This document shows, one piece after another, positions 1,528 to 63,669 of a DNA stretch of 64,000 nucleotides. Source of the stretch: Mycoemilia scoparia (taxonomy: Eukaryota > Kickxellomycota > Kickxellomycetes > Kickxellales > Kickxellaceae); assembly GCA_027575805.1 (NCBI GenBank), contig JANBPU010000053.1:23275-87274 (forward strand), read 5' to 3'. Numbering within the stretch: position 1 is the stretch's first letter; each line of letters starts with the position of its first letter. Below the pieces are notes generated by a model that had not been told where the DNA came from, ran no database searches, and saw only the letters and a program-made list of their open reading frames with translations. The position numbers and the translations under genes are program-made.

Positions 1528-1670
1528 CAGCAATAATAAAGACGCATTCCAAGCTATAGGTAATGTCTTTTTTGAAAAGTTTTTAGTAGATTAGTTGGGT
1601 TGCTTTATATCTTTTTTAAAACTTTGTGGTAATCTCTCTTAACTATTAAAGAAAACAAGTCATCTTATCT

Positions 1671-1791
1671 ATATGGGAGATAATTTTCGAAGGGTGAAAG
1701 TTTACTAGTAAAACTGGACATTCATTTAGCTGTGATTGCCCCTATAATCATTGGTCACCAAAATTCACCCTTCAAAAAATATTACCCATAT
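1671..1791 (+). mobile_element. Family A inverted-repeat element, copy A1
   Basis: A 121-bp non-coding element with terminal inverted repeats of about 25-28 bp: it starts ATATGGGAGATAATTTTCGA and ends with the complement, CCCTTCAAAAAATATTACCC then ATAT. The interior contains the family core CATTTAGCTGTGATTGCCCC and CATTGGTCACC. Size, inverted ends and lack of an ORF fit a MITE. Its last four bases (ATAT) are also the first four of copy A2. Confidence 0.85.
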
Positions 1792-1908
1792 GGGCAATAA
1801 TTTTTGAAGGGTGAATGTTTGCTAGTAAAACTGAACATCCATTTGGCTGTGATTGTGCCTATAATCATCAGTCACCAAAGTTTATCCTTCAAAAATTATT
1901 GCACATAT
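1788..1908 (+). mobile_element. Family A inverted-repeat element, copy A2
   Basis: A 121-bp copy in the same orientation as A1 and directly abutting it. It starts ATATGGGCAATAATTTTTGA and ends AAAAATTATTGCACATAT. The core is CATTTGGCTGTGATTGTGCC. A1 and A2 differ at several positions, so this is not a very recent tandem duplication. Confidence 0.85.
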
Positions 1909-4882: not shown

Positions 4883-6244
4883 ATGGCGTATTATACGCCG
4901 CTATCACTACCATTTGAAGTCAGACTTAAAATATGCAGCTATCTGGATCGAAGTATTGATAAACACACACTAGATGAACTTTCCGGATTGTCCCCATATT
5001 GGGAAAGAACCGTTAACCAATACAAAGCTGAAAATATAATAAACGGAGAAGTTCACTTTCCAGACTATCTCAACTACTCGCTAGCAAGCAATGTCAATTT
5101 GGATGATTTTTATACGGCCACAAAGAAAGTTGTAGTGAGATCAATTCCTGAACCTTCTTCAGATTACTTTGAAACTATGACAAGGCATTTTCCCAATTTG
5201 AAAGAGATAGAGGTTGAGTGCAACAAAATCAATCTGCCTGAAATAAGGAGATTTTTACATTTTGGCCATCAAATCAATGTTGAAAAATTAATTCTAAGAT
5301 CATATGGATTGAATGTACCTGAAGATATAATCATACAGGGACATTACAATAACCTGAAAACGTTAAAAATAGTAGCCCGTGGCGGTTCAATATCAATAAC
5401 CTCGATTTTGGATCACTTTCCAGATTTAGAAAATCTTTCAATGAATTCAAACGTTATTGACCATTCAATGGCTATGGAATTCCTATCAGAGAATTCTGAA
5501 CGGTTTGGCAATAAGTTATATCCGAAATTAAAATCAATCAACTTTTTTTTCAGCATGTTTATAGATATAAACAATTACCAACTTGAGGGCCTCAGAAAAT
5601 TAGGAACTGTATTCCCAAACCTTGAATCGCTCGCGCTTGACTCAAATTTAATTTTTATTGGACGACAAGATGCGATTATAAGGAATATATTCAACTCTTT
5701 CGATACTATTATTTCAGGATCCAATAACTTGAAAAGCTTACGCCTGTCACTTATCAATGATACCATTGTTTATGTAATTGAGCAACATTGCCCTAACCTT
5801 GAAAGCTTGTGGTTGGATTTATCTAATATTGATTACCCAATAGATCTACCCTCTACATTACAAGGATTTTTAGGACTATCGAGTATGACTGGTTTTACAA
5901 ATTTACAATTTTCTCCGCCTTTTTATAACCAAGATACTAAAAGAAACGAGTCTTTTTTTATAAAATCGGGGTTTGGTTGGCAAAATATTGGGTTGACCCC
6001 AACAACAGTAATAGATATCGGTCAAACGAACATCAAATCTATCAGTTTTTCCCAAATTGCTTTTAGTCCCCGAATACTTTATTTTCTCAAAAAATTTCCA
6101 TTGCTTGAGAAGCTTGAAATAGAAATGTCCAACTTCTTTGACATTGAGAATGTGGCTATGAGTGTATCACTACAAGGTCTCATCATCCTATCTATAGATA
6201 TTCTGACACGCTATAATATATGGGCAATAATTTTTGAAGGGTGA
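4883..6244 (+). CDS. F-box / leucine-rich-repeat protein, 3' end replaced by a MITE
   Basis: 453-aa single-exon frame. An N-terminal F-box-like segment (LPFEVRLKICSYLD, residues about 9-22) is followed by repeated leucine-rich units such as FPNLKEIEV, FPDLENLSM, FPNLESLAL and CPNLESLWL. Known: F-box proteins are the substrate-recognition subunits of SCF ubiquitin ligases, with the LRR binding the target; such genes are commonly multicopy in Mucoromycota. The last eight codons (IWAIIFEG) and the TGA stop come from the terminal repeat of family A copy A3, not from the gene. The severed original end lies at 6341-6472. The present product therefore lacks its last LRR turn and may be non-functional. 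Target unknown. Confidence 0.85.
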   Translation: MAYYTPLSLPFEVRLKICSYLDRSIDKHTLDELSGLSPYWERTVNQYKAENIINGEVHFPDYLNYSLASNVNLDDFYTATKKVVVRSIPEPSSDYFETMTRHFPNLKEIEVECNKINLPEIRRFLHFGHQINVEKLILRSYGLNVPEDIIIQGHYNNLKTLKIVARGGSISITSILDHFPDLENLSMNSNVIDHSMAMEFLSENSERFGNKLYPKLKSINFFFSMFIDINNYQLEGLRKLGTVFPNLESLALDSNLIFIGRQDAIIRNIFNSFDTIISGSNNLKSLRLSLINDTIVYVIEQHCPNLESLWLDLSNIDYPIDLPSTLQGFLGLSSMTGFTNLQFSPPFYNQDTKRNESFFIKSGFGWQNIGLTPTTVIDIGQTNIKSISFSQIAFSPRILYFLKKFPLLEKLEIEMSNFFDIENVAMSVSLQGLIILSIDILTRYNIWAIIFEG

Positions 6245-6338
6245 ATTTTGGGGACCAGTGATTATAGGGGAAATCACAGCCAAATGGGTGTCCAGTTTTA
6301 CTAGTGAACTTTCACCCTTCAAAGATTATTACCCATAT
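6218..6338 (-). mobile_element. Family A element A3, inserted inside the F-box/LRR gene
   Basis: A 121-bp copy in reverse orientation relative to A1, starting ATATGGGCAATAATTTTTGA and ending AAAGATTATTACCCATAT. It is flanked by AT on both sides (6216-6217 and 6339-6340). Removing the element plus one AT (123 bp) joins the upstream LRR frame to the downstream LRR frame with no shift. This is the clearest proof in the window that family A is, or was, mobile. Confidence 0.92.
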
Positions 6339-6340
6339 AT

Positions 6341-6472
6341 CAGCTTATTGCCTTTATTAGGATATTTCCTAATGTCAAAGTGCTCAAGTTGCGTAGCATC
6401 AGAAAAGCAGATCTAGCCAGACTTAGAGCTGAATTTCCAAACATTGCATCATTCGAAATTAGGAGCATTTAA
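6341..6472 (+). pseudogene. Severed C-terminal part of the F-box/LRR gene
   Basis: Reads in the same frame as 4883-6217 and gives 43 residues plus TAA. It contains two further LRR-like units, IRIFPNVKVLKLRSI and EFPNIASFEIRSI, matching the style of the upstream repeats. It has no start of its own and is cut off by the stop at 6242-6244 inside element A3. The ancestral protein would have been about 488 aa. Confidence 0.85.
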
Positions 6473-6969
6473 GCATCATTAATATTTGTTTTTAACAAGT
6501 TTACTTGTTATGTTCAGTAGCAGATCTGACTTTGATTTTGGCATCCATCACTTAAACATAGTTCAATCTTTTACATTTGGTGTTTTACTTTTACTGTATT
6601 TAATACATACATGTTTGTTTGAATAAAATTCTTTTAAAGTGCAGAGATAAGTTGTAATCATTAGTCTCTTGTTAATCCAAATAAGGTGATATTTAGATAA
6701 TTTAATCACCGCCTTTATGTTTAATAAAGTATAGCAAAACATTAGTCAAGGTGTGATTTATTTTTTATTCGCTGTGACTTAATAAGCCATACATGACACC
6801 GCCAGTAGCATTCCCTTATTCAGATTCACAGCTGATGTTGTTTCAAAACGCATTTGTCTTGTGAAAATTATTACATATTTATAGAATTTACACTACTCTC
6901 CAGAAAACAAGACACCTGGAAGGATCGAGGCAACGTTGATAACCACGAAATTTATATACTATATACAAG
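6473..6969. other. Intergenic spacer, promoter region of the small secreted precursor
   Basis: AT-rich, no coding frame. A TTATATA-like stretch at about 6951-6958 lies close to the start of the next gene and could be its TATA element or part of the 5' UTR. Confidence 0.4.
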
Positions 6970-60821: not shown

Positions 60822-62742
60822 TATCCATTGTCATAATTATTCTTTTATTCGTATTGATCAAGTAGCTGGTATTAATTCATTTTTATTTTCATAATTATGT
60901 TTATTATCACATTACAATAAAATAAATTTATTACATAGTAACATATTGAGCAAATTTTGCCAAAATAATGTGTATGCTAAAGAGGATGAGAGCATTTTTA
61001 CCGGCTCTTTTGGTACTGTGGATTGCTATATGAACATTATTTGCTTAATATTAATGTTTGGACATCAATTTAGCCTTTTTTAGAACTTCATTCCTTGCTA
61101 TTATTAAGAGTTTTATAACAAGAAAGAGAGAAGTCTAATGCAGCTTGATCGCTTGCACGCATTTGCTCGTGTGCCATCTTATTCACGTGGATCTTGTATA
61201 CCAAAATGGTAATATTGGCAATATTTTTATAATAAAGTTTGTTGAAATAGTTACGCATAGATACACGTTTTCTGTTGAAATTGGGGTTAAGAATTGGGTG
61301 AGCGATTTTTCTGTTTCTACATCAATTATCGAAAGCAATGTTTCTCCAATAAAGAGCCTTTTACTGGATATGATGGCCAGTGCACCACGCATCATTTCCT
61401 GTTTTATTTTGTTAATGCGTATGATGTCTATTTCTTATTCCCCATGTATGCGTGGTCGTGCACAGAGAGATATAGGAGCTGCCTTATTAAGCCATATATG
61501 GAAATCCCTTGAAATAAGTCATGTGAAAAGGAAAAATTGTGTGTCTTCTAAAATAGGAAATTATTTGTTATTAGCAAGTACACTGGAAAAGCTTGTAAGG
61601 TAATAAACATGTTAGTGAACATACACTGTCGATAAGGTGCTGGGGGAAGTTTAGCAGCATTGACAGTATGTTCAAGGAAAACATCTCAATCCCTTTGGCT
61701 TGGGCTTTTGCCAAGAAATGGTTGAAGGAAGTTATGGTAGCAGCATGAGTAACGTACAATTCCAAGAATGCTAGAACCGATCATGTAAGTGTGAGCCGTG
61801 TTGTGCATAATAGAACTTTGTTAATGGCAGATAAAAAGTCTAATTATAATGTCAAAGTGTTAAACAATCATTTTGCAGACATACATATTTCCACACACAC
61901 ACATAGGGTTGCTATCATCTAGTTTGTGTGTGTAATATAATGGTAGCATTGGGAGATAGGAAGTTCGAATATTTAGATTTGACACATTATTTTTGTTGTG
62001 ACCCTATGGGCAATTGTATGTGTATATGCGTATATTTGGGCTTCCAAAATTGTTGTAATTTTTAGATGGGGGGTGTCAAGCGAATCAAGCCCATCAGACC
62101 CTTTGGGCCCCAGCCGTAAGCGAACCCTTTGTGGAAACAATGTGTACCTAAGGGAGTAGGGAAGTAGGGATGAGAAAATCCCCAAACTCCTAAGCAAATT
62201 CCAAAGCTGCTGATGAATGTATGCGTTTGCATGGTGAGAAGGCTGTATGCAGAGACAGAGCGCATGTTTCTAAGCTCTCTCATGCCTCTGTAACACATTC
62301 TTTGTAGTACTAATCGCGGTCTTGGATGCCATTTTTATGGAGCTAAATGTAATGGCTGGACGAAAAATTGTACAAAGTAAATGATGGTATATATCACGAG
62401 AAAATTTGGCCCTGTGTATGTGTATGGAAACATGTATATGCGTTTAGTCTGTAGAGAAAGATTATGGCGCATATACGCAATAACTCGTAGTCGCCATAGC
62501 TACAAACTCTGTATAATATTTGTAGCCTATTTATTTTATTTTTGCAAACAAAAATTATTTAAAAGGATGTTTTCGACCTGACAAAATTTCGAATCCACAC
62601 GATATACAAAAAAACTATACTTTACTTTTCTATTACTTTTAAACATCTTACTTCCTATTAATCTTTAATACTACTAATACTACTACTACTACTAATAATA
62701 TTACTCTTTTATAATATTCACTAATTTTCTACCTTTGTTATA
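60822..62742. other. Intergenic spacer, 1.9 kb
   Basis: A 152-codon frame at 61145-61603 has no motif and is not called. Short (AC)n near 61890-61905. The last 100 bases carry (CTA)n-like triplets before the chitinase start. No gene supported. Confidence 0.45.
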
Positions 62743-63669
62743 ATGAATTTCACTAAATTCCAATTGTTTAATATTACACTTTTTGCCGCCTTGGCTCTAA
62801 TTGCCATTGTCTCTAGTCAAGATGGTAGCGATGGCTCTCCAACTCCTGCATCCACCCCACCCGGAGTCTCTGATGGGAATGCCCCTGTCACTAAACCTGC
62901 TGTAGTCGGTGGTGACAATAGCGATGGAGGTCAAAGTGACGATAGCTCGGACGACAGTAGTGCTCCTAGCAATGGTACTCCTAGCAGTGGGGACAGCTCC
63001 AGTGGCGGCAGCAGCGATGATAGCAGCAGCAGCGGTGGGGGAGATGGCGATGGTGGTAGCAGTGGAGGAGATAAATTTGGACTCGATTGCGACAAGTTTA
63101 CCAAGGCTGTTACAGATGCTGGTTATGAGTCTCCTGCCAGTGAAAAGTGTGACCACTTCCTCAACAACCTAGGCAAGGGAAGCATCTCTTCTGCTCGCGA
63201 GGCTGCCATGTTCCTTTCAGAGATTTTGTGGGAGTCTGCTGGTTTGACTGCTACATCTGAAATCGCTTGCAAGGACAACGGGTGTCAAGGATCCTACTCG
63301 ACTGCAGGTGACCCTGCAGGCAAAAGCTACTACGGCCGTGGATACATCCAGCTCACTTGGTCTGCCAACTACAAGATGTGTTCTCAGAAGCTTTATAATG
63401 ACGATCGTCTATATCAGGACCCTGATGTTGTTGCAACCGACGATAATGTTTCTTGGCAGGTTAGTTTCTGCTTCTGGGCTGAAAATGTTCACAATGCTGC
63501 GGGTGTTCAGGATGGCAAGTTTGGTGCTGCTACCAAGGCTATTAACGGTGCATTGGAATGTAATGGTGGTGGTGCTGTGGACAAGGCCAAGAAGCGCTAT
63601 GAAATTTACAAGAAGGTCCTGGCCGTATTCGACTCTGGCTCGACTCCTGACGAATCTGGCTGCTACTAG
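62743..63669 (+). CDS. Secreted GH19-type chitinase
   Basis: 308 aa, single exon. Signal peptide (residues 1-25, core ITLFAALALIAIVSS), a Ser/Gly/Asp/Pro-rich linker (about 26-108), then a GH19 lysozyme-fold domain. Key features: AMFLSEILWESAGL, where the Glu after Trp is the likely catalytic acid, and YYGRGYIQLTWSANYKMC, which is the hallmark GH19 segment (normally FYGRGPIQL/YGRGxxQLTxxxNY). VSFCFWAENVHNAAG and the end KRYEIYKKVLAVF follow family order. Even Cys number suggests disulfides. Known role: endochitinase acting on chitin; GH19 is common in plants, bacteria and some early-diverging fungi but rare in Dikarya. No chitin-binding module is seen. Likely acts at the cell wall or on other fungi or arthropods. 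Confidence 0.9.
   Translation: MNFTKFQLFNITLFAALALIAIVSSQDGSDGSPTPASTPPGVSDGNAPVTKPAVVGGDNSDGGQSDDSSDDSSAPSNGTPSSGDSSSGGSSDDSSSSGGGDGDGGSSGGDKFGLDCDKFTKAVTDAGYESPASEKCDHFLNNLGKGSISSAREAAMFLSEILWESAGLTATSEIACKDNGCQGSYSTAGDPAGKSYYGRGYIQLTWSANYKMCSQKLYNDDRLYQDPDVVATDDNVSWQVSFCFWAENVHNAAGVQDGKFGAATKAINGALECNGGGAVDKAKKRYEIYKKVLAVFDSGSTPDESGCY

Follow-up and report, generated by a model that had tools for sequence, protein, structure and literature searches.

A family A MITE at an ATAT target very probably interrupts an LRR gene of Mycoemilia scoparia and truncates its product without a frame shift

In the 64,000-nucleotide stretch of DNA analysed here (the window), an LRR frame runs into a short inverted-repeat element, which raises the question of whether the element was inserted into a formerly continuous gene and, if so, which bases were duplicated and what became of the protein. 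The frame starts at ATG 4883 on the forward strand and remains open until TGA 6242-6244. Its host part (4883..6217) comprises 445 codons and is followed at 6218..6244 by a new C-terminus, IWAIIFEG plus TGA, which is derived from the target together with the element. The translation bore out an earlier sequence-only reading of this locus, according to which the frame enters a repeat unit at 6218-6338 and there gains eight codons and a stop. The same reading held that insertions in this frame always end in IWAIIFEG; this is true of the left end of the present copy, but the right end, read likewise, gives IWVIIFEG. The severed host tail lies behind the element at 6339..6472 and consists of two bases of the split codon, 43 codons (QLIAF...EIRSI) and TAA. 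That the sequence at 6341-6472 still encodes protein in a sensible frame was also confirmed, as the frame continues there without a change of phase and, once translated, matched the C-termini of paralogues in tblastn searches. The genome contained no second copy of the tail DNA (6341-6700), the single match being the query itself. The Pfam scan gave 27.6 bits for LRR_4 in the window protein (cut-off 27), and the F-box profile produced a sub-threshold match (E 0.02) in the paralogue L033 only, among four proteins scanned. The N-terminal pattern of the window protein, which we take to be F-box-like, adds to the F-box label, and the interrupted gene is probably of the F-box/LRR type.

The element, copy A3 of a repeat family referred to as family A, has a core of 113 bp (GGG...CCC, 6222..6334) framed by two ATAT tetranucleotides, the left at 6218..6221 and the right at 6335..6338, each one copy of the duplicated target. 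Positions 6216-6245 pair with 6311-6340, with 28 of 30 bases identical, and the part of each inverted repeat that belongs to the core spans 24 bp (6222..6245 on the forward strand and 6311..6334 on the reverse strand). Folded as RNA, the copy was predicted to form a single long hairpin (-47.1 kcal/mol, z = -6.0). In each of the six reading frames, 2 to 8 sense codons precede the first stop. The family A inverted ends read ATATGGGYAATAAT, and the end pattern of the unit occurred 1,011 times at no more than one mismatch (504 forward and 507 reverse) in the 21.16 Mb assembly of 466 contigs, while the control, the same pattern read backwards, was found 0 times. A genome search with the unit 6218-6338, in which the best 40 of 1,354 first-look candidates were scored, returned among the matches listed a copy at C276:1334-1454 that is identical to A3 over 121 of 121 bases and has unrelated flanks. 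The core was 112 or 113 bp long in 48 of 62 distinct full-length copies, and the core plus four bases was divisible by three in 29 of them. Family A elements are thus short, non-coding, bounded by inverted ends, present in high copy number and homogeneous in length, and target duplication was seen through an unoccupied site at two places, in paralogues or repeat copies rather than a true allele. Family A is a previously undescribed MITE family of a known kind.

Family A copies were also observed in company. At window positions 1669-1908, two copies stand head to tail with a single ATAT in common (CCCATATGGG on the reverse strand, near 1790). At four further loci (L007, L016, L042 and L063), family A copies adjoin other repeats that start with ATATGG and continue like GGTCAAANTTCACAAG; family A is apparently accompanied by a second family of repeats bordered by ATAT.

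The identity of the duplicated target was read from the flanks of the whole family. In 56 distinct full-length copies, ATAT stands on each side of GGG...CCC with every column conserved at 96-98%, the outer A and T as well as the central TA, and the bases beyond it carry only 0.2-0.4 bits. Of 62 such copies, 57 had a left ATAT, 56 a right one and 53 both, and nine lacked it on at least one side; both sides had it in 30 of the 38 copies that lack an element-like neighbour. The left ATAT was preceded by CC in 17 of the 62 copies, and the right one was followed by GG in 14. The dinucleotides outside the 121-bp unit were equal in three of 62 copies (all AT), when 3.0 were expected by chance. Because 53 of the 62 copies have ATAT at either end and the outside dinucleotides agree only at chance level, the duplicated target lies inside the unit, and the 2-bp AT duplication outside it that had been proposed was not borne out. 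The AT on either side of A3 is a coincidence, since the element landed in a host run of (AT)3. Either ATAT itself was duplicated or TA was, the latter with an A-TA-T context that is near-obligatory; both fit the data alike.

Within the AT run, the net length of the insert could be 117, 119, 121 or 123 bp, of which 117 and 123 keep the frame. An AT-rich target of this kind permits several in-frame excisions, and only the family-wide flanks and the paralogues decide between the lengths. Removal of 117 bp (6222..6338, equivalently 6218-6334) creates the junction RYN-IY-QLIAF, and removal of 123 bp creates RYN-QLIAF. The four closest paralogues (44-45% identity), located on contigs C416 (upstream of the window), C106, C149 and C269, read YYTIRDIIKF, EYTTNEIVMF, CYTLDELVMF and EYNVEELVTF, respectively, at this position, and all of them carry two residues more than the longer excision allows. 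Alignment scores at the junction were compared in 19 of 29 matches; the window itself (L031), the second pieces of genes already represented (L037, L052 and L057) and six broken, short or weak matches (L047, L048, L049, L055, L058 and L059) were left out. The 117-bp junction scored higher than the 123-bp junction in 14 of the 19 paralogues, lower in four and equal in one, and the closest four gained 14, 3, 10 and 13 points. Lengths of 119 and 121 bp fell below 117 in 18 of 19 paralogues and tied with it in one, L054 being tied for all four lengths. At the DNA level, L034 and L035 aligned over the 117-bp junction without gaps there, and the alignments of L032 and L033 contained small gaps near it that cancel out. 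The reading in which a 121-bp element duplicated an outside AT, for a net 123 bp and an old junction RYN-QLIAF, can draw on the preserved frame, on the AT present on both sides at this site and on four distant paralogues (L039, L042, L045 and L050) that favour it by 3 to 5 points; set against the two additional residues in all four closest paralogues, the chance-level agreement of outside dinucleotides and the second insertion site described below, we consider it highly improbable. The claim that excision restores the frame therefore stands in that the frame is kept, but the length is 117 bp rather than 123 and the predicted empty site was off by 6 bp.

An uninterrupted allele was sought in this genome, and neither an allele nor a close copy was found; only paralogues are uninterrupted, the nearest about 45% identical. 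No allele or close orthologue was detected in the public protein collection at E 0.001 (7,993 candidates scored). The arrival of the element by insertion into a continuous gene was nevertheless upheld by the uninterrupted paralogues and the many unlinked copies of the family. L036 (C38) and L044 (C98) are close LRR paralogues (87% over 1,246 DNA columns), and L044 has a family A copy 3' of the gene. This pair was considered as an empty site and rejected: the homology stops exactly at the left ATAT, but the right side is unrelated.

A second insertion site was provided by the family A copy L029 (C418), which sits inside a dispersed repeat. It was one of the two sites used from a screen with joined flanks that gave 91 rows for 71 copies, some of which fall within more than one locus, and the rows were mostly AT-rich, repeat or tandem-copy matches. 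The L029 search listed 40 matches of 122 candidates, of which 10 besides L029 itself begin at most nine bases from the junction (nine new loci and L056). These ten unoccupied copies of the host repeat align over the junction when one ATAT is kept, and the junction was gap-free in nine of them, L080 having about 20 extra bases. ATAT is absent from this position in all ten, five of which read ATCT there, and we therefore infer the ATAT target at L029. The occupied repeat copy would presumably have drifted to ATAT before the insertion, and L029 gives better support for the size of the duplication than for its sequence.

Taken with these two sites, the most coherent account, which we regard as very probably correct, is that a MITE was inserted at an ATAT of an intact LRR gene and duplicated it, adding 117 bp net, and that the TGA in the element truncates the protein. 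A member of a high-copy family with a 113-bp core would have moved by cut-and-paste transposition, presumably with a transposase acting in trans, and landed at an ATAT towards the 3' end of the gene. Since the net insert equals 39 codons, no frame shift arises, and it is the stop within the element end that truncates the protein; because all six frames stop early, this copy would truncate any open frame in either direction. The old protein would have had 490 residues (445 + IY + 43), in comparison to 453 at present (445 + IWAIIFEG, the first I being the same). The frame would now end after eight codons of element and target, the last LRR units would be lost, probably together with the C-terminal function, and the tail would effectively serve as 3' UTR. 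The lost segment spans a repeat of the FPNVKVLKL type, which most of the 19 aligned paralogues carry close to their ends. Truncation of genes by MITEs is well known, and the event is ordinary in kind and the core observation sound. It offers a concrete case in which a MITE truncates a gene without shifting its frame, and the empty site, backed by paralogues, establishes the target rule for an abundant family of MITEs in a group of fungi that has received little study.

The truncation would be avoided if the element were removed from the mRNA within an intron from GT 6241 to AG 6324 or AG 6360, with a normal C-terminal LRR still being made. Two in-frame, stop-free GT-AG pairs (6241-6324 and 6241-6360) do exist if the acceptor may lie as far as 25 bases beyond the insert, the resulting introns of 84 and 120 nt would be of a suitable size for a fungus, and a wider search including GC donors found 13 in-frame pairs. 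However, at least one such pair was present in 1,237 of 2,000 dinucleotide-shuffled inserts (mean 2.2), the donor reads GTGAAT rather than the consensus GTRAGT, and an AG was found in the last 20 core bases of only six of 62 copies. Splicing would be possible on paper, with in-frame options that appear no more frequent than chance, and we judge it very unlikely. The gene could also have been non-functional by the time the element arrived, in which case the insertion had no effect. The close paralogue L032, in whose match an in-frame TAA was reported, speaks for such a history; against it, no stop interrupts the 445 codons of the head or the 43 of the tail, and comparison with the paralogues reveals no frameshift, the element being the only lesion seen, and an earlier death of the gene is accordingly unlikely.

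The insertion into an intact gene had been called recent on the grounds that the tail has no stop yet. This argument proved weak: of the 387 single changes possible in the tail, only 12 create a stop, and the probability that it would stay open through 20 random changes is 0.53, so the open tail says little about age and was dropped as a means of dating. Recency itself is likely, and the identity of A3 to the unlinked C276 copy over 121 of 121 bases is the better evidence for it.

Profile searches for a transposase partner matched the genome 15 times with PF13358 (DDE_3), four times with PF10551 (MULE) and once each with PF03184 and PF18759. PF13359 had no matches in the genome, nor did the piggyBac domain (PF13843), whose control also matched nowhere, so that its null result shows little. 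No family A ends framed the DDE_3 (8 of 15 places), DDE_1 (1 of 1), MULE (3 of 4) or Plavaka (1 of 1) loci. Seven of the DDE_3 loci (L066-L072) are Tc1/mariner-type elements with inverted ends of about 214-239 bp starting with TACAGT or TACACT, unlike the TGGGYAATAAT of family A (0 of 7 match); the eighth locus examined (L065) had no clear ends. One MULE locus (L090) has family A fragments to one side of it but is not framed by them. Longer elements with family A ends were sought as well, and the four end pairs obtained (C5, C45, C21 and C33) were each rejected as two separate short or partial copies. On C5 (33000-35700, L061), a family A copy apparently lies within an intron of a gene that we take, from its exon reading too, to be like a mitochondrial dehydrogenase kinase. 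On C45 (600-3800, L062), a 749-codon ORF that reads like another F-box/LRR-type protein stands between one full and one partial family A copy. We offer only tentatively, as a rather doubtful proposal, that family A represents a lineage with an obligatory 4-bp ATAT duplication and a transposase outside the tested families, which repeatedly inserts at the ATAT edge of existing elements and so forms chains that share a single ATAT. An obligatory ATAT, if true, would be analogous to TTAA for piggyBac.

Among known systems, family A resembles the coral CMITEs, as described in excerpts of PMC2872659, in being about 100 bp long with inverted ends, in its palindromic target duplication of 4 bp and its tandem copies, and in sites with and without the element (an allele there, paralogues and repeat copies here). 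The coral elements are of the piggyBac/TTAA type, with TTAA as the target and CC[C/T]T as the end motif, whereas family A has ATAT and GGG ends, and the excerpts ascribe the CMITE arrays to replication slippage rather than separate insertions (PMC2872659). The silkworm BmMITE-10 shares the ATAT target duplication and is listed as 'Novel' with a length of 258, but its ends (CGTCGC...) are unrelated (excerpt of PMC2997013). A phrase search of the literature for an ATAT target duplication gave no match, which means little since the excerpt of PMC2997013 lists one such MITE. The Drosophila LTR retrotransposons 297 and Transpac also make a 4-bp ATAT duplication according to the excerpted text of PMC3276498, but family A is an inverted-repeat element. 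Stowaway-like and Tc1/mariner MITEs have TA at the target centre, as does the ATAT of family A, and DDE_3 genes are present in this genome; yet the family A ends differ from those of seven of the eight DDE_3 loci examined, and the outer A and T are kept equally.

Elsewhere in the window, the ORF at 62725-63669 contains a serine/glycine-rich stretch followed by a chitinase-like domain, which we presume to be of family 19. A fungus of the Kickxellomycotina is indicated by the choline-phosphate cytidylyltransferase that the window encodes, whose best named match was from Spiromyces aspiralis (66% identity), ahead of Coemansia and relatives.
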